Origin: a virus
IMG/VR virus record: IMGVR_UViG_3300033148_002871
Span: 1-20,716 of that record
DNA: 20,716 nucleotides
Direction: 5' to 3' (one strand)
Shown: positions 9,852 through 20,716 of the stretch, piece by piece
Layout: every line of letters starts with the position of its first letter
Position numbering within the stretch: position 1 is the stretch's first letter
Made by a program: the position numbers and the translations under genes
Notes under the pieces: generated by a model
Told to the model about the DNA's origin: nothing
Databases searched by the model: none
Seen by the model: only the letters and a program-made list of their open reading frames with translations

Positions 9852-10016
9852 CTACTCCAACCGCACACACTCTTCCCTGTTTATGTTGGGTGCATGCCCG
9901 TTGAAAAAATTTACCTTAATGGACCCATGAAAGTCCGGTTGCTCTTCCAATAAACTTTGAAAGTATCGAAGAAGCTTCTCTAAAGTCGCCTTCGTCTTGG
10001 TTGTCTTATCCGTCAT
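9852..10016 (-). CDS. Conserved-position small phage protein, 54 aa
   Basis: ATG at 10016-10014 overlaps the portal's TGA as ATGA, and the frame runs 54 codons to TAG at 9854-9852. The protein begins MTDKTTKTKATLEKLLRYFQ and ends NINREECVRLE. The N-terminal half is basic then helical; the middle holds FHGSIKVNFFNGHAPN, probably beta. It is too short for domain recognition and I do not know the family. Support comes from the stop-start overlap with the portal, sensible composition, and a terminator placed just after its stop, which makes it the last gene of the terminase-portal transcript. A minor packaging or head protein is plausible; no specific function is claimed. Confidence 0.7.
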   Translation of the reverse strand: MTDKTTKTKATLEKLLRYFQSLLEEQPDFHGSIKVNFFNGHAPNINREECVRLE

Positions 10017-11881
10017 GACGCCGCCCCCGCAAGCTCGACCTGGAGCTTCGCCATTTCCATCTGCTGTTTTTGCATCTCCATCTCTTGCTTCTGCACATTT
10101 ATCCTGCGCTGTTCTTCCGCTACTTGAGCCGCCGCCGCCTCCCGCTGCTCAATGTCCTTGACCATCTCATCCTTATTCGGGAGATTCGATACTTCCAGAA
10201 TGTGTTTCGGATTGATCGGCAACCCAGCGCGAAGAGCCTCGATCAACAACTCATAATTGGCAAGCTGAATCGTCGGAGCGGTCGGACTCTGAGATACCTT
10301 GACTCCGTATCGCCCCGTGGCGAATGATGTAAGCTGCTCCATATCCACATCGAGATTCTTCTCGCTGATGAGCGCAGCGATCTCCGCATCAGAATACAAC
10401 TTCGATCTGCTGTTTCCAGTTATGTCCGGTAGACGAATGAAATCCACCAGGGTTTGCGCGTAAATCTGGCGGGTGAAGTTGAAGTTATCAAAGAGGATTT
10501 CGTTAACGAGCATCCCCTGATTCTTCCGCAAAAGCGCCAGCCGCCCGGATTCGTGTGCCGAGGATTCTCGCCCTTGAAGATCGGGGTTCACCCCGCTAAT
10601 CCGGTCTATATCCGCCGAGCTCTGCTCCGCTATCGTCATATGTCCTACCGAAAGCGGAGAAGGATTGATCCGCTCCAATGTCTTACCCGGGTTAAGCTTG
10701 ATCTGATGACCGGGTTTAGAGCCGAACTCTTTCAACTCATCCCAGCCTTCAGAAGTCAGGGCGTCACGATCCCCCATCCATCCGCTATTCGCCGATTGAT
10801 TCAGATGATGAAGCACCTGAGATCGCCGCTTATTGTGTTCCTTTTGCGGGTCGACAAGGTTGTCTATTACCCCCATGATGTTATCGTTTACGTGATAAGG
10901 GCAGAATCGAGCAAAAGGATAAACCGTCAAACCGCCATACGGATCGTCCCTGTTTTCCAACAGAATATCACCGGTAAACGTAGTGACGTGGAGCACGGGC
11001 GCAATCCGCTCCTTGATCGTCCATACTCCCTTTTCGTTTGCCGTTCTCGCCAGTGCCTTGGCGACGTCCTCCTTCTTGGGACCAATGCGCATAAACTCCA
11101 AAGTGGATACATTCACCAGGAATTTCCGCCGCTCGTAACTGCGCCACCAGCATTCGTAAACCCGGAACCGATATTTCCGTTCGCTGACTCCGTCGCCCCC
11201 TTGCTGCTCATCGCTGTAATCGTTGGTCTCATGAAGTGGATCAGCATCACCGATATCATTACCAGGCATTGCAGGATCGGCTCCTTCCCTTAACGCCGCC
11301 ACGTCAATCTCATTTTTCATATCCGGGTATCGGAGCAGCAATTCCTCCTTATCCGCCCAAAATCGTCGAATGATGTACTTAGCGCTGCGATTGAGATCAT
11401 ACTCCATCACTTCGCGATCTTCGATCACATCGAAGGGAGAGAGCTTTTGGATAACCAAATCCCCGTTCAACGGATCGTTATTGTAGTCGATATCAAAACT
11501 CAACCAGCCCTTACCGCAGATAATCCCATCAAGAAACGCCGCCGAAAATTCCCATTCGCCATTAGAAATGTCCTGAGTATGCTTGGCAAGTTCCGTCAAT
11601 ACAGCTGCAACCTTCTCTGTGCCCCCACGCCGGGCGTAAACCTTGATGTCCTGACGGTTCTGTCGCTGCACGCCGCTCAAAAGATTGATGACTGGCAAGA
11701 TTCGATTAATGGTAAAAGCGGGCCGTCCCTCATTTTTAAGTATTTCCAAATCAGCCGAGTCCCATTGCTCCCCCAGATAGAACCGATACGCCGTCCGTGC
11801 GCGACTACACCAGTTCTGGTTGTCCGCCAGACCTTTCTTAAGAAAACCCTTAACCTTCGCCAATAGTTCTTCGTCGTTCAT
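10013..11881 (-). CDS. Portal protein, P22-like family
   Basis: 622 aa from ATG 11881; a GTG at 11887 overlapping the terminase stop (GTGA) is an equally possible start. Signature segments of P22-type portals are present near the N-terminus: FYLGEQWDSADLEILKNEGR, then PAFTINRILPVINLLSGVQR, then QNRQDIKV. ENRDDPYGGLTVYPFARFCP and 'DNLVDPQKEHNKRRSQVLHH' appear in the middle. The last 70 residues are a Glu/Gln-rich coiled coil (AEEQRRINVQKQEMEMQKQQ), comparable to the C-terminal helical barrel of P22 portals. The dodecameric portal forms the DNA entry vertex, binds the terminase during packaging and later carries the adaptors. It directly follows large terminase, the standard order, with likely translational coupling. 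P22 portal is about 725 aa, so this one is shorter. Confidence 0.93.
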   Translation of the reverse strand: MNDEELLAKVKGFLKKGLADNQNWCSRARTAYRFYLGEQWDSADLEILKNEGRPAFTINRILPVINLLSGVQRQNRQDIKVYARRGGTEKVAAVLTELAKHTQDISNGEWEFSAAFLDGIICGKGWLSFDIDYNNDPLNGDLVIQKLSPFDVIEDREVMEYDLNRSAKYIIRRFWADKEELLLRYPDMKNEIDVAALREGADPAMPGNDIGDADPLHETNDYSDEQQGGDGVSERKYRFRVYECWWRSYERRKFLVNVSTLEFMRIGPKKEDVAKALARTANEKGVWTIKERIAPVLHVTTFTGDILLENRDDPYGGLTVYPFARFCPYHVNDNIMGVIDNLVDPQKEHNKRRSQVLHHLNQSANSGWMGDRDALTSEGWDELKEFGSKPGHQIKLNPGKTLERINPSPLSVGHMTIAEQSSADIDRISGVNPDLQGRESSAHESGRLALLRKNQGMLVNEILFDNFNFTRQIYAQTLVDFIRLPDITGNSRSKLYSDAEIAALISEKNLDVDMEQLTSFATGRYGVKVSQSPTAPTIQLANYELLIEALRAGLPINPKHILEVSNLPNKDEMVKDIEQREAAAAQVAEEQRRINVQKQEMEMQKQQMEMAKLQVELAGAAS

Positions 11882-11883
11882 CG

Positions 11884-14424
11884 TCACATCGCCATTACAC
11901 TAAGTTCGCTGCCTTCGCGATAGGCATCCTTGTAACTCCTACGCCTGCGCGGCAGGTCGGGCGAAATCCGATCCAGGGCATAGTTTCCCATGATCCAGGC
12001 GTCCGCCCGGTCGGGACTCCGACCCAGTCGCTTCTTGATGTCCTCTTTAGGCTCGATCACGATCCGCGTGTTACGAAAATGGTATCGCGGTGCACACAGT
12101 TGCCGCCTCAATTCCAAATCGTCATGCTTCAATTCCACATCGCCCGCTGCTAAATCCTCCGCCGCCTTCCACCACATCTCAGCGCGGACGTTGTGAAACT
12201 TCGCCAGGTTGTTCGACTTTGCGGCGGAATTAATCTCGATAACCTCATATTGGTCCCCGGCCATCTGTCGAAGTTGATCCACCACTCCACCGCCCACGCC
12301 GTCACCATCTACCACGACGGCCTTTACCTTCCGCTCCAAGGCCGTCACATGCAGAAGATTCGCCGTATGCACCAAGTCTTTCTTGCCGTAAATCTTCTCA
12401 TCAAGAATGTCCGTCTCTTCCATGTAGTAGATGACGGTCTCATCGTCGCCGAATCGGGCAACGTCGCAGGCCAGCAGCCGCCGCTTGTAGGGCTTGTGGA
12501 AAGTCACTTCCGCCGCGTTGCGCAGCCATGCGGCCTGTATGACCTGATCCGTACCTTCCAATACATCCCAGGAACCATATAGATATGCCTCGATCAATTC
12601 GGGACGATGCTTGAAACTATCCTTCAACTCGTCGACATATCCTTGAGGCAACCAGGGATTATCAGCAGGCAGCGATTGAACGAACCGCCGATCAGCCGTA
12701 GGCTTATCGATGAATTCTTCTTTCAAAAAAGAGGCAGCGGGATTCGCCGTGAACAACCCCTTGGGCGGGATCGTAATGTCATTGATGACAAGCCGTCGCG
12801 TGGCGCGAAGCGTGCTCACATCATCCCGCGTGCATTCTTCAGCCTGGTCGAGGAAGAAGAATGCATACTCTGCCGAATTGAACTTGCTGAGTGTTTCACG
12901 GTTATCAAGCCCACCGTAATCAAGCTTCACCTTACCACCTATGACGATTTCCTTATCACCTGTCCGTAACTCATATACGTCAGATGGAATAGCCTTTATC
13001 CACGTCTCCAACGTAGTATCAGTGAAGTGCTTGGAAATCTTACGACCCAAGAACCCAACTGGGATAGGGCGCTTGCATGATTCGATCTTGCAATCCTCAA
13101 TGATCTTCAAACAAAGCCAAAACGACCACATGCAGCCCAGGTAACTGTTATGAGTCGGAATCAATGATTTCCCTGCAAGGTAGAGACGGCTTGGGCTGTC
13201 GACTTCAATACATCTAACCGGGACCGTTGTAACTCGGTCACAGGCTACAATATATCGCCTTCTTGTGCGTAAAGTTGGATTGGTGTTCTGTCGAATCTTC
13301 TTGCGATAGAGTCTACATACAGGCAAGGCCGTGCAGAATTTTATACGATATCTGTCCTTGCATCGCTTCCCCTTCAGCCAAGCCTCTGATTGCCGAATAG
13401 TTACCTTAATCCCCAATCCCACAATCAACTCATGCACGTCATGCGCAAGACGTTCGTCGGACAAACATATCTCTACGCTACCGCGATCCGTCACATGGCC
13501 ATCTGAATCAATTAACCCCTGCAACAGCGATAGCCGTTGCTCGATGGAACCTCTCTTATACTCGTCGGGAATATGCTTATTGCGATACAGCCCCATTGCT
13601 TTCAACATGACCGCAAGACCGCGAATGCCCCAACCAAACTTATTGGACTTCTGCTTTTTGAGGACAAAGCCATCCTTGCGTATCTCGTCGATTACTTGCA
13701 AATCCGGGTTAGTAATTGCTCCATTGCGAGCAGTGCCATCTCCTAACCACACCCCTAACGTATAAGGCGGAATCGACAGATCGGCCTGTGGATATTGCAG
13801 CGGATCACATACTCGAACGGAATGATTTATAAACTCATTGTGATATAAAGTTTGGGCTATCTCTTCCGTGGTCCTGATCCCGCCAGCATTGGATTGTTTG
13901 TATTTATATTGCCGTGCAGCATTCCGCAGAGCCAAGTCCGGTTTCTTACCAGTGCCACGCGAGGGGCGCCTCAATCTCCGGGCCGCTCTAAATTCTTCCG
14001 TATGCCTAGCATTATTGCATCGCTCTCGATACATTTCGGTAAACCATTCATGCCCCTTGTCGGCAACAATCTCAGACCCATCGCTAAAACGAACCTTGTA
14101 ACAATCATGCTTACGATAGACAGGACTACGCCCAATAACAGAGCAAGGAACACCGCGCTCATCAAAAACCTGGTTACCAACACGAATGGTCCCCATTGTT
14201 TTCCAACCATCTACCGTAAGTATTGGCGTATCAAGACTTGTGGCTTTCCCGCCTCCCTTTGCCCCGCCGAACAGAACTTCCTTAACAGACGGATTTTCCA
14301 GCAAATCCCATGCAGTGGTCTGCCGGGGAGACAGTTGGAATCGAACAGCCGATTCAGTTGTTGCCGAACCGCTCGATTCTTGCGGCTGATTGTTCTGCAT
14401 TTTGACCATACGTTTTTTCAACAA
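11884..14424 (-). CDS. terL: Terminase large subunit interrupted by an intein
   Basis: 846 codons counted from a TTG at 14424; ATGs at 14409 and 14400 are likelier starts, but none has a clear ribosome site and all overlap the small terminase, suggesting coupling. Numbering from 14424: Walker A is GGAKGGGK (53-60) completed by S427, because residues 61-426 are an intein. After removal the product is about 480 aa, normal for the family. Walker B is FFFLDQAEE (522-530). The RNase H-like nuclease shows LLACDVARFGDDE (D654), VVVDGDGVGGG (D706) and GRSPDRADAW (D805/D808). The enzyme pumps DNA into the procapsid through the portal and cuts concatemers. The unspliced precursor has a broken P-loop and should be inactive for packaging. 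Confidence 0.96.
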   Translation of the reverse strand: MLKKRMVKMQNNQPQESSGSATTESAVRFQLSPRQTTAWDLLENPSVKEVLFGGAKGGGKATSLDTPILTVDGWKTMGTIRVGNQVFDERGVPCSVIGRSPVYRKHDCYKVRFSDGSEIVADKGHEWFTEMYRERCNNARHTEEFRAARRLRRPSRGTGKKPDLALRNAARQYKYKQSNAGGIRTTEEIAQTLYHNEFINHSVRVCDPLQYPQADLSIPPYTLGVWLGDGTARNGAITNPDLQVIDEIRKDGFVLKKQKSNKFGWGIRGLAVMLKAMGLYRNKHIPDEYKRGSIEQRLSLLQGLIDSDGHVTDRGSVEICLSDERLAHDVHELIVGLGIKVTIRQSEAWLKGKRCKDRYRIKFCTALPVCRLYRKKIRQNTNPTLRTRRRYIVACDRVTTVPVRCIEVDSPSRLYLAGKSLIPTHNSYLGCMWSFWLCLKIIEDCKIESCKRPIPVGFLGRKISKHFTDTTLETWIKAIPSDVYELRTGDKEIVIGGKVKLDYGGLDNRETLSKFNSAEYAFFFLDQAEECTRDDVSTLRATRRLVINDITIPPKGLFTANPAASFLKEEFIDKPTADRRFVQSLPADNPWLPQGYVDELKDSFKHRPELIEAYLYGSWDVLEGTDQVIQAAWLRNAAEVTFHKPYKRRLLACDVARFGDDETVIYYMEETDILDEKIYGKKDLVHTANLLHVTALERKVKAVVVDGDGVGGGVVDQLRQMAGDQYEVIEINSAAKSNNLAKFHNVRAEMWWKAAEDLAAGDVELKHDDLELRRQLCAPRYHFRNTRIVIEPKEDIKKRLGRSPDRADAWIMGNYALDRISPDLPRRRRSYKDAYREGSELSVMAM
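13147..14244 (-). mobile_element. Class 3-type intein with LAGLIDADG homing endonuclease inside terL
   Basis: 366 aa, from A61 to N426 of the precursor, splitting Walker A between K60 and S427. Block A reads ATSLDTPILTVDGWKTMGTI, so position 1 is Ala rather than Cys or Ser. Block B is DGSEIVADKGHEW, with His125 and Trp127 two residues later. Block F is VPVRCIEV, with Cys405. Block G is LIPTHN before Ser+1. Trp in block B, Cys in block F and Thr before the penultimate His form the Trp-Cys-Thr signature of class 3 inteins, which start splicing from the block F cysteine. The endonuclease motifs are LGVWLGDGT (223-231) and LLQGLIDSDGH (300-310), both with their catalytic Asp, plus a block D 'KHIPDEY'. 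The element appears intact and possibly mobile. Confidence 0.93.
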
Positions 14425-14836
14425 CGATTTTCACGCCGCCCGTAACAGCAACATCCTGACGATTGCTCCATCGTAAGCGGTTGCGATTCGTCAGCCAAAG
14501 AGTTATCGCCTGTATACTCGGTTGAACTTGTTTTGTGACGATCTTGCGACCGACGAGATCGCCGTCCTCGTCGAATTTTTCCGTAACCTCGTCATACTCA
14601 TAACCCAGGGCGATCTTCTTCAGCGCCCCCTCGATCTGGGTCGTGTCGTATTCGTCCATCCCGCGCAAGACCGCCTTAGCGAACTCAGGATACTCACGCA
14701 GCCAATCGTCAATCTCGTCCTTGCTTACATCGAACAACTTACCCAGATGCGCCCTGTCAAAACCTCCGGCAGAAGCAACGTAAGCTTGCCTGCAATACTC
14801 AGGCTTGTACTTGCTGATTGTGTCTGTTTCAGTCAT
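14354..14836 (-). CDS. terS: Terminase small subunit
   Basis: 160 aa, ATG 14836, eight bases after the upstream gene's stop, with AGG nearby. Residues 8-50 (KYKPEYCRQAYVASAGGFDR, then AHLGKLFDVSKDEIDDWLRE) have the helix-turn-helix pattern of small terminase DNA-binding domains. 'YPEFAKAVLRGMDEYDTTQI' leads into the helical oligomerisation region, and 'QPSIQAITLWLTNRNRLRW' near 105-123 is a recognisable motif of this family. The protein recognises the packaging site and loads the large subunit. The last 20 or so codons overlap the start of terL in another frame, consistent with coupled synthesis in a fixed ratio. Confidence is high because of both motif and neighbour. Confidence 0.9.
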   Translation of the reverse strand: MTETDTISKYKPEYCRQAYVASAGGFDRAHLGKLFDVSKDEIDDWLREYPEFAKAVLRGMDEYDTTQIEGALKKIALGYEYDEVTEKFDEDGDLVGRKIVTKQVQPSIQAITLWLTNRNRLRWSNRQDVAVTGGVKIVVEKTYGQNAEQSAARIERFGNN

Positions 14837-17209: not shown

Positions 17210-17412
17210 TTTGTCGTGAATCTTAGCATTAATACGTAATCTTCATTGCCATCTTTGCATACTTCGGCAATGCCGATACGTTTTCCAGCTTCTCTCCGCA
17301 ATACAACCGCTATCCGGTCGATCTCGACTGCTTCTGCGTCTGTTTCCGACGCAAGTCGTAAGGTAATCCCCCGCCGATCCCATGCATGTTGTTCCGCCAA
17401 CTCAACCTTCAT
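17206..17412 (-). CDS. Hypothetical protein (68 aa)
   Basis: ATG 17412 lies inside the end of the VRR-NUC gene (11-base overlap), preceded by AAGG, and its stop overlaps the next ATG. The sequence MKVELAEQHAWDRRGITLRL continues with a helix (ETDAEAVEIDRIAVVLRREA) and a closing strand (EDYVLMLRFTTK). It may form a small alpha/beta domain. No motif or family is recognised. Tight overlap on both sides argues that it is a real coupled gene and probably acts with the nuclease and helicase encoded just upstream. Confidence 0.6.
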   Translation of the reverse strand: MKVELAEQHAWDRRGITLRLASETDAEAVEIDRIAVVLRREAGKRIGIAEVCKDGNEDYVLMLRFTTK

Positions 17413-17716
17413 TGCCCTTGCCTTTGTTTCCTATCGCCATAATCTTGGATACATCGTCCCAGGATGTAACCACTTCCGCCGGTGCCCCCGCTCCCCTGAT
17501 CCGCTCCAAGGTATGTTGCTGCAACGTCGTCGGTTTCCCGCCAGCACGCTTGACCTCGAAAAAAAAGACCATGCCCTCAGCCACGACCAACAAATCAGGC
17601 AATCCACGCTGCTGATAAATCGAACCATGCAGCTTGACCCACCAGATCCCCAGCCTGTCCAAGTGCCGTGTAATGTCCTTAATGATCGCCTTCTCACTTC
17701 GCAACTGTTTCGTCAT
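17402..17716 (-). CDS. VRR-NUC domain nuclease (PD-(D/E)XK superfamily)
   Basis: 104 aa, ATG 17716 within the last codons of the helicase gene (23-base overlap), with GGTGG upstream. The whole protein is one minimal VRR-NUC domain: an N-terminal helix (SEKAIIKDITRHLDRLGIWW), the core 'RGLPDLLVV' with D41, 'MVFFFEVKRAGGKPTTLQQ' with E54-x-K56 and Q66, and a terminal helix/strand (IRGAGAPAEVVTSWDDV). These are the D...ExK...Q residues expected for metal-dependent cleavage. Stand-alone phage versions are thought to act as structure-specific or Holliday-junction-type nucleases in replication and recombination. Coupling to an SF1 helicase suggests the two form a functional pair. Family assignment is firm; the substrate is unknown. 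Confidence 0.9.
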   Translation of the reverse strand: MTKQLRSEKAIIKDITRHLDRLGIWWVKLHGSIYQQRGLPDLLVVAEGMVFFFEVKRAGGKPTTLQQHTLERIRGAGAPAEVVTSWDDVSKIMAIGNKGKGNEG

Positions 17717-19412
17717 GTTGCACCACCTTTTGAATGTTCACCGAAGAAACGCCGGCGGGGTCACAGAGAATCAACGTCTCTCTTGCCCTGGTCAAACCAA
17801 CGTAAAAAAGCCGTATCACACTGTCCCGAGGCTCACCCTTACTATCCCATGCCCGCATACCGGACGGCGACAGGTCGGGAAAGAGAATTACTACATCCGC
17901 CTCAGAACCCTTGAAGCTGTGGATCGTGCCCACATAAAGACGCGGCGGAGCCGTCAGCGCCCGGGCGCCATGGACCTCAGCCACCTTGAGCGGATACCTG
18001 GCAGCCTTGACCTTAGTCCCCAATAACCGATCCGACCACCACGCCACTATCCTCTGTCGTGACACTACCGACTCACCGGCATCGCCACCACGAGCTGCGA
18101 GCATCCCCAACAGATTATTTAATGGATCAGATCGAAACAGCTCTAGAAGACTAGCAATCCCTATCTCCTTGTCCAATGATAGAGCCACCCGTATCTGCTT
18201 CTTGGCACCATAGACTAGCAATCCCTCACTCCTGAGCACGGACACCCACCGATTAAGTTCCGCCGGCGTCCAGGGACGGGCTTTGTCCCCGTAGCTCGGT
18301 ACGTCGTACCGGAGGAAATCCGCCAGCCGCTGAGCCATCGTAACGCCTCGAGCCACCGTCAACGGATTCCAGCCGCCCCGCTTCGGTCGCCAAGGATTAG
18401 CATAGGGAAGCCCGCGACGCCGCAGAACCTTGAGCAACGGATAGAGAAAGAACGAACATGACGCCGCAAACATCACAGTCTTGCCCTCTGCCAAATACCG
18501 CTCGGCCAGGTCCACCGCCCGCTCAGGCGCCCGCCACGTAGCCTTGTGCCGCAGCACGGTCCCATCGTAATCGCGCGGCTGATAATCGATAGGTCGATAG
18601 GTCGACAACTGCTCCACCCATCGCATCGACGCCCGGTAGACGGTTCTGGGGACGCGATAGGACTGCGTGAGCACGCGCCTCCGCTCCCGGGGGATGGACT
18701 CATCCAGGAATATCTCCGGGTGAGCGCCTCGCCAGACATAGAGGGCCTGGTATGGGTCACCCGTGACGATCAGCCGCCCGCAAGCCGCCCCCCACTTGCA
18801 GAGCAACGCATACTCCAGCGCCGATAAGTCCTGCGCCTCATCCGCGATGACGATCAACGGACTGCCCGGCGCATGCTCTGTATCATGTAACGCCATCTCA
18901 ATCATATCCGTGTAGTCTATCACACCCGCATCGGCCTTCCACGCCTCCCACGCCGCGACGAACGCTTGCACGCGCGACGGCCACAAATCTCGCTCGACCA
19001 TCCTCGCCCGCAACAGGTGATACCGCCTCGCAAGCTCATCGCCCATTGACCGCTCGTGGGCCATCTGCTCCCAATCGGGATCGTCGGGATCCACCTCACG
19101 GCCCGCCAGCCGGTAGGCCGGATGGGCCTCCCCAAAGTCCGCCAGATGCGCCTCGGCCACCTCCGGGCAACCCAGCGCCCGATAGGCGTGGCTGTGCAAC
19201 GTCCCCACACACTTCTCCGGTAGCGGCAAGTCACGTCCCGCTATCTCAGCGGCGGCGTTGCGCGTAAGCGAGCACAGCAGGACCGGCGTCTTGTTCTCCG
19301 GATGCCACTTCCGCGCCCACGCCACCCACTGGCGCGTTTTTCCGGCCAGATGAGACGTCTTACCACAGCCGGGGGGGCCTATGATGATGTATGTGCCATT
19401 GATTGCTCTCAC
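17694..19412 (-). CDS. UvrD/Rep-like superfamily 1 DNA helicase
   Basis: 572 aa with a GTG start at 19412, supported by GGAG nine bases upstream; the protein begins right before motif I, so little could be missing. Motifs in order: Walker A GPPGCGKTS (12-20), Ia LCSLTRNAAAEI (46-57), Ib GTLHSHAYRAL (70-80), II DEAQD (191-195), III GDPYQALYVWRGA (218-230), IV QSYRVP (250-255), V VGTIHSFKGSEADVVIL (494-510), VI RLFYVGLTRARETLIL (534-549). All catalytic elements are present, so it should be an active ATP-dependent 3'-5' translocase. There is no fused nuclease domain; a VRR-NUC nuclease is encoded next with overlap. It probably acts in phage replication or recombination. Confidence 0.95.
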   Translation of the reverse strand: MRAINGTYIIIGPPGCGKTSHLAGKTRQWVAWARKWHPENKTPVLLCSLTRNAAAEIAGRDLPLPEKCVGTLHSHAYRALGCPEVAEAHLADFGEAHPAYRLAGREVDPDDPDWEQMAHERSMGDELARRYHLLRARMVERDLWPSRVQAFVAAWEAWKADAGVIDYTDMIEMALHDTEHAPGSPLIVIADEAQDLSALEYALLCKWGAACGRLIVTGDPYQALYVWRGAHPEIFLDESIPRERRRVLTQSYRVPRTVYRASMRWVEQLSTYRPIDYQPRDYDGTVLRHKATWRAPERAVDLAERYLAEGKTVMFAASCSFFLYPLLKVLRRRGLPYANPWRPKRGGWNPLTVARGVTMAQRLADFLRYDVPSYGDKARPWTPAELNRWVSVLRSEGLLVYGAKKQIRVALSLDKEIGIASLLELFRSDPLNNLLGMLAARGGDAGESVVSRQRIVAWWSDRLLGTKVKAARYPLKVAEVHGARALTAPPRLYVGTIHSFKGSEADVVILFPDLSPSGMRAWDSKGEPRDSVIRLFYVGLTRARETLILCDPAGVSSVNIQKVVQHDETVAK

Positions 19413-19634: not shown

Positions 19635-20716
19635 CTATGACATTATGGCTTTGGCCCAGAACGATCTTGTGCTGCGCTCACCACCATAACGGAAGAATAC
19701 CGTAACTCTAGCATAGCCACAGACTTTCAAGCAATCACATAGTTCTGCATGTGTGATCTTCTCGTGTTGAAGTATGCGCATATGCTTATGTAGTTCGCCG
19801 GCATGGATATGACACATATCGTTTCTGATGAATGGTTCGGAGATGGATGCCGCTTCTTGCCAGTCTTCCTCTTTCATGGGTGGATGGTCATCGAGATAGG
19901 ATTTAATCCATTGTTTTGTTTGGTACGCGTCGGTCATTTCTTCGTTTTCGACTACTTCAACGACCTTTGCGAGGCATTGACAGACATTATCCCAAGTCTT
20001 TCGTTTGGTGGTCTTTATAAGAACTCGTGTTGCCTCATATAGACGTGAGCGGAAGTGATCCGGCGACAGAACATCTTTTGTGGTTCCCATGCGCACCCAA
20101 CGTCCGTCGCTTAATTGGAGGCTGTATCTGGCATTTTCCTGTCCATGCTGAACCCACCGCAGGATAGGGATTCCCAATACGGCTGAAAGCTTTTCCAGGA
20201 GGGCCTTTTTTGTCGTAGCGTCCGCAGTGCCATTTTGTGTGTATTCGGTATCGGCGTCTTTGATGGCATCCGCCAGTATGGTTATTGTTTGTTTATTGTT
20301 CATCTCGGCCATAGTCCTGTTTTCCCGTATTGCTTCAGCCTCGGTTATGATCTGATCCTCGGCCATTGCCTGCATTGCAGTTTCAGCCAGTTTTGCTATT
20401 GTTCGGTCATGTTTTGCTGTCTTTATCGCCTTTCCGATGGTTCGCTGCATATAATCTCGGCGCAGTGCTTTGGTCACGTCCAGATCGTGCAATCGGCGGA
20501 AGGCGATGATGGTATTGGCGATTTCCTGCTCCGTCCAGTTGGCGTAGGCCGTGGTATTGGCGATACTTTGGTCGTACTCGCTCGGGCTGGGGAACTCGGG
20601 GCGTCTACGTTGCCACGTTTTTTTGAATTTCGCATCATTTTCGAGTAAGGGGATAAGTTTGTTCGGCGGTGGTTCAGCGTCGGATCGAAGGATCAGCGGG
20701 TCCATCTTCAAGCCCT
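19635..20716 (-). CDS. Phage primase-like replication protein, C-terminal part (N-terminus beyond right edge)
   Basis: The frame is open through the right edge; a TTG at 20711 gives 358 codons, but the true start is probably outside the window. Residues 5-75 (numbered from the TTG) carry a recognisable pattern from phage bifunctional primase/helicase-type proteins: 'DAEPPPNKLIPLLENDAKFK', 'SPSEYDQSIANTTAYANW', then TEQEIANTIIAFRRLHD and RDYMQRTIGKAI. In those proteins this lies C-terminal to an AEP-type primase domain ('SEYD.SLA..A..AGW..QEI..LI...RR'). Residues about 175-230 are beta-rich (RYSLQLSDGRWVRMGTTKDV). The end (HAGELHKHMRILQHEKITHA...) looks like a winged helix. No Walker A is visible in this part. 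It stops at TAG 19637-19635. Confidence 0.7.
   Translation of the reverse strand, partial: GLKMDPLILRSDAEPPPNKLIPLLENDAKFKKTWQRRRPEFPSPSEYDQSIANTTAYANWTEQEIANTIIAFRRLHDLDVTKALRRDYMQRTIGKAIKTAKHDRTIAKLAETAMQAMAEDQIITEAEAIRENRTMAEMNNKQTITILADAIKDADTEYTQNGTADATTKKALLEKLSAVLGIPILRWVQHGQENARYSLQLSDGRWVRMGTTKDVLSPDHFRSRLYEATRVLIKTTKRKTWDNVCQCLAKVVEVVENEEMTDAYQTKQWIKSYLDDHPPMKEEDWQEAASISEPFIRNDMCHIHAGELHKHMRILQHEKITHAELCDCLKVCGYARVTVFFRYGGERSTRSFWAKAIMS

Follow-up and report, generated by a model that had tools for sequence, protein, structure and literature searches.

Class 3 inteins, insertions into P-loops and inteins of phage terminases, including some in the Walker A motif, have all been published before (PMC5050341). 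Class 3 inteins of known structure include Mch DnaB1 from M. chimaera (6rix) and Msm DnaBi1 from M. smegmatis (6bs8), and members of the class have been tested biochemically (PMC5222942, PMC6195587, PMC7664689). In Msm DnaBi1, oxidation leads to a disulfide between Cys48 and the catalytic Cys118 that reversibly blocks splicing; the authors of that study called Cys48 non-conserved and found that all of their Cys48 mutants failed to splice (PMC6195587). In phages, the inteins of the large terminase subunit (TerL) have been shown to splice, and two of them, TerL1-b and TerL1-c, cut intein-free alleles in tests (PMC5050341).

The viral DNA analysed here, hereafter the window, is a stretch of 20,716 nucleotides (IMG/VR record IMGVR_UViG_3300033148_002871). 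We conclude, with a probability of roughly 93%, that it encodes a class 3 intein that is full length, including a LAGLIDADG homing endonuclease, and lies between the Walker A Lys and Ser of the large terminase of a P22-type phage.

The intein and its terminase host

A minus-strand frame of 846 codons (positions 11884-14424) encodes a large terminase that is split by an insert of 366 residues (13147-14244, minus strand; residues 61-426 of the frame). The N-extein (14245-14409, if the first ATG in frame is taken as the start) has LFGGAKGGGK as its last residues, with the Walker A half GGAKGGGK at 14245-14268, and the C-extein, which comprises the remaining ATPase and the nuclease (11884-13146 including the stop; PHROG terminase large subunit, 2e-26), starts with SYLGCMWSF. 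Once joined, these flanks form the Walker A loop GGAKGGGKS that is found uninterrupted in related TerLs, and the original prediction had thus located the insert correctly, between the Lys and the Ser of this motif. The start codon of TerL is probably an internal ATG, at residue 6 or 9, which lowers the size expected for the spliced product from the predicted ~480 aa to 472-475 aa.

The neighbouring genes, also on the minus strand, encode the small terminase, upstream and overlapping the TerL start (14354-14836; PHROG terminase small subunit, 3e-26), and a P22-type portal protein that adjoins TerL downstream (10013-11887; Pfam P22_portal, 4e-97). Three further minus-strand genes are located upstream of the packaging genes and encode a small Hjc/VRR-NUC-like nuclease (17402-17716), a UvrD-like helicase (17694-19412) and a protein with a weak match to the RepB-primase C-terminal domain (19635-20711). 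A second contig, of 38.5 kb, carries the same sequence, with 100% identity over the 12.4 kb compared.

The intein extends from Ala1 to Asn366 (all coordinates on the minus strand). Ala1 (14242-14244) leaves position 1 without a nucleophile, as is typical of class 3 inteins, which have neither Cys nor Ser there. Block B, SEIVADKGHEWFTEM (14032-14076), contains Asp62-x-x-His65-x-Trp67; block F provides Cys345 (13210-13212), at the position of the class 3 nucleophile; block G ends in Thr364-His365-Asn366 (13147-13155), and the +1 residue is the Walker A serine itself (13144-13146), as judged from uninterrupted TerLs. The Trp-Cys-Thr set that defines the class (B:12, F:4, G:5) is therefore represented by Trp67, Cys345 and Thr364, which align with the corresponding residues of relatives and of class 3 inteins with solved structures. 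The prediction had listed these residues in frame numbering, as Trp127 of block B, Cys405 of block F and Thr424 of block G, together with the Ala start and Ser +1, and each of them is present as described.

As expected for an intein, the insert is in frame, its joined flanks match uninterrupted TerLs and its structure model contains a Hint fold. This AlphaFold model (pLDDT 92.1, pTM 0.90) has a splicing domain that superimposes on 6riy, 6rix and 6bs8 with TM-scores by target of 0.82-0.84, and its whole fold resembles that of PI-SceI. The same three class 3 DnaB inteins are the top PDB matches of the window intein at the sequence level (6rix, 6bs8 and 6riy, E 1e-23 to 4e-23). The mycobacterial DnaB mini-inteins (6bs8, 6rix) share with the window intein Ala1, Asp62-x-x-His65, Trp67, the block F Cys, Thr-His-Asn and Cys48, as well as an insertion in a P-loop before Ser, but they have no endonuclease and interrupt a bacterial replicative helicase, whereas the window intein is full length and resides in a phage terminase. 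The mycobacteriophage inteins TerL1-a to -e (PMC5050341) share the terminase host, and several of them are inserted in the P-loop, at Lys/Thr or Lys/Ser; those of Minerva and Sassay, which we aligned, have the same Trp-Cys-Thr set as the window intein. However, mycobacteriophage TerL inteins are only 34-39% identical to the window intein and belong to actinobacterial phages with another TerL family.

Relatives, class and Cys48

Hundreds of other inteins can be aligned with the insert over its full length. In a set of 161 sequences, consisting of the window intein and 160 relatives taken from contigs of viruses and bacteria, His65, Trp67 and Cys345 are invariant (161/161). With the diagnostic Trp and Cys so constant, the insert alignable throughout and 71 related TerL frames uninterrupted at the site, the observation lies far outside chance. 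Moreover, His65, Trp67 and Cys345, as well as Cys48 and Asp169, lay outside every search pattern used to gather the relatives, whereas the share of Ala1 is biased, the patterns having included the block A start or part of block A. Several relatives (among them L158, L160 and L165) have the Trp of block B and the Cys of block F but start with Leu, Gly, Gln, Arg, Met or Asp, indicating that in this intein family position 1 is less constrained than Ala alone would suggest.

Three class 1 inteins starting with Cys1, used as controls, have Leu at the position of Trp67 and Gly at that of Cys345, and form a separate clade in the tree (support 100/100), apart from all the other inteins; the branch uniting the window intein with its nearest relative has moderate support (91/62). 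Class 1 is ruled out on three counts, namely residue 1, the residues found in blocks B and F, and the tree. The insert is thus a class 3 rather than a class 1 intein: its residue signature, its homology to class 3 inteins of known structure, its tree position and its fold all uphold the class proposed originally. That this class is rare compared with class 1 is true only in a relative sense: in the phage and bacterial contigs searched, class 3 inteins are frequent, with at least 577 viral and 295 genome loci encoding relatives of the window intein. The Pfam profile Intein_splicing (PF14890) matched neither the window intein nor any of the 44 class 3 relatives scanned (E 0.001); in these 44 inteins, Pfam finds only the endonuclease part. 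Since the splicing profile is blind to class 3, such inteins are easily overlooked and terminases carrying them easily mis-annotated, the host gene being called exonuclease or helicase.

It had also been suggested that splicing could be switched by redox state through the single block F cysteine. Cys345 is indeed the only block F nucleophile, but the window intein contains ten cysteines, and the relevant second one is Cys48 (14101-14103, minus strand), which occupies the same position as the residue that forms the redox disulfide with the catalytic Cys in Msm DnaBi1 (PMC6195587). The redox idea should therefore rest, by analogy with that intein, on the Cys48-Cys345 pair; on this basis, redox gating of the window intein is plausible, a Cys48 partner for the catalytic Cys being present. 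A stronger proposal would make the intein more than a selfish element, with a Cys48-Cys345 disulfide stalling splicing, and hence packaging, under oxidising conditions. The behaviour of Msm DnaBi1, likewise a class 3 intein inserted in a P-loop before Ser, speaks for such a switch, as does the retention of Cys48 in 126 of the 161 sequences (78%; 78/104 after thinning at 60% identity). However, Cys48 is absent from a second class 3 sublineage that occupies the same TerL site, its conservation may reflect folding, because all DnaBi1 Cys48 mutants lost splicing, and the benefit to a phage remains hypothetical. We thus regard a true redox switch as rather unlikely.

If the window intein behaves like the class 3 inteins that have been tested (PMC5222942, PMC6195587, PMC7664689), its splicing would start from the block F cysteine: Cys345 would attack the Lys-Ala1 peptide bond, producing a block F branched thioester, the N-extein would be passed to the Walker A Ser (+1), Asn366 would then cyclise with the help of His365, and an acyl shift would leave the exteins joined and GGAKGGGKS restored. 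Until then, the P-loop of the precursor is broken, with its Lys and Ser 366 residues apart, and from established P-loop chemistry normal ATP binding by the motor is not to be expected; ATP binding and packaging should therefore need splicing.

That the insert belongs to class 1 or class 2 and merely resembles class 3, with a Cys345 dispensable for splicing, is very improbable. The missing position-1 nucleophile is also a class 2 trait, and the class 2 route is in principle open to inteins that carry the class 3 signature (PMC5222942), but Trp67, Cys345 and Thr364 are all there, the first two invariant among relatives, and the homology is to biochemically tested class 3 inteins, with the class 1 controls standing apart. 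Equally improbable is a decayed intein that has lost splicing and left the phage with no working terminase: inactive class 3 intein pseudogenes do exist, such as Arth_1007 of Arthrobacter (PMC3196547), but here the frame is open with no stops, every catalytic residue is present, the terminase parts are intact on both sides, the structure model has high confidence and an identical sequence occurs in a second contig.

Endonuclease and repeated entry into the Walker A site

The class 3 intein of the window includes a LAGLIDADG homing endonuclease region (approximately 13285-13797, minus strand), detected above cut-off by Pfam LAGLIDADG_3 and Hom_end and consistent with the PI-SceI-like model. Both motifs typical of these endonucleases are present, each with its catalytic Asp, namely Asp169 (13738-13740) and Asp248 (13501-13503), in agreement with the earlier statement that both had been kept. 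These two residues and Lys223 are also retained in nearly all relatives, with the reservation that the counts for Asp246 and Asp248 are biased by the block E search pattern. The endonuclease may be active and would then carry the intein into empty GGAKGGGKS alleles.

Such empty sites are abundant. A search of viral contigs, with the terminase portion as query, retrieved 80 related loci, most of them with an uninterrupted GGAKGGGK followed by Ser or Thr (71 uninterrupted TerL frames were used for the profile). Two of the loci (L023 and L024) have an intein at exactly the same TerL site and another (L072) starts within the end of one. The exact DNA pattern GGAKGGGK/A identified eight contigs with TerL inteins, seven of them distinct when this virus is counted, and all of these inteins have Ala1 and a block F Cys. 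No Cys1 intein was found at this site in viral contigs with the DNA pattern GGAKGGGK/C, which covers the exact motif only; Ser1 inteins are indistinguishable from empty sites by DNA pattern.

Seven viral-contig TerLs display another peculiarity at this spot, a stop codon (TGA or TAG) right after GGAKGGG, with 4 to 6 additional bases ahead of the Walker A Lys codon (e.g., GGC-TGAGC-AAG, GGC-TAGGC-AAG and GGT-TGAC-AAA). Two belong to the TerL family of the window (L048/L130 and L067/L127) and five to the KTW TerL family (L109, L114, L141, L321 and L331), so that the same spot is affected in unrelated TerLs. Downstream, the remaining terminase can be read without interruption, in six of the seven cases in a different frame. 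Recoding, a repair scar after homing-endonuclease cutting and an assembly artefact are candidate readings.

The TerL inteins located at GGAKGGGK/S split into two class 3 sublineages. Six inteins from uncultivated viruses (L145, L146, L147, L149, L151 and L156) share with the window intein both the identical site and the class signature, and five of the six belong to the second sublineage, devoid of Cys48. The window and L149 terminases are 50% identical, versus 32% for their inteins; conversely, the window intein is 44% identical to that of L147, versus 30% for the exteins. The AU test, for groups picked after the tree was seen, rejects the hypothesis that the GGAKGGGK site was invaded only once, in an ancestor, both when the window and L149 inteins are held together (p=3e-9) and when all seven are (p=9e-103). 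The Walker A Lys/Ser site has therefore been entered at least twice, independently, by different class 3 lineages.

The nearest named relative of the window intein is located in the DnaB-like helicase of Brevibacterium phage Rousseau (OV696622; 44-48% identity over the whole intein). It is also inserted in a P-loop, at GK/T, but its host protein is a helicase, indicating that the lineage moved between unrelated P-loop proteins.

Since class 3 inteins and Walker A inteins of TerL had already been published, the window intein is a good new example and not a new kind of element, of a mechanistic class that is uncommon but known. With it, a terminase associated with a P22-type portal joins those that carry, here at the Walker A Lys/Ser, a well-formed class 3 intein complete with its endonuclease. 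The analysis further contributes the evidence that one site was invaded twice independently, a tally of conserved residues and a new reading of Cys48: roughly three in four of the relatives sampled keep this residue, which makes a general class 3 thiol switch directly testable. Tentatively, and against the odds as we see them, Cys48 and the block F Cys might form a conserved redox pair in the main lineage of class 3, through which the inteins inserted in P-loops of phage packaging motors and helicases would share one thiol switch controlling ATP binding, with the TerL Walker A Lys/Ser site entered repeatedly and, in our survey, only by class 3 inteins.
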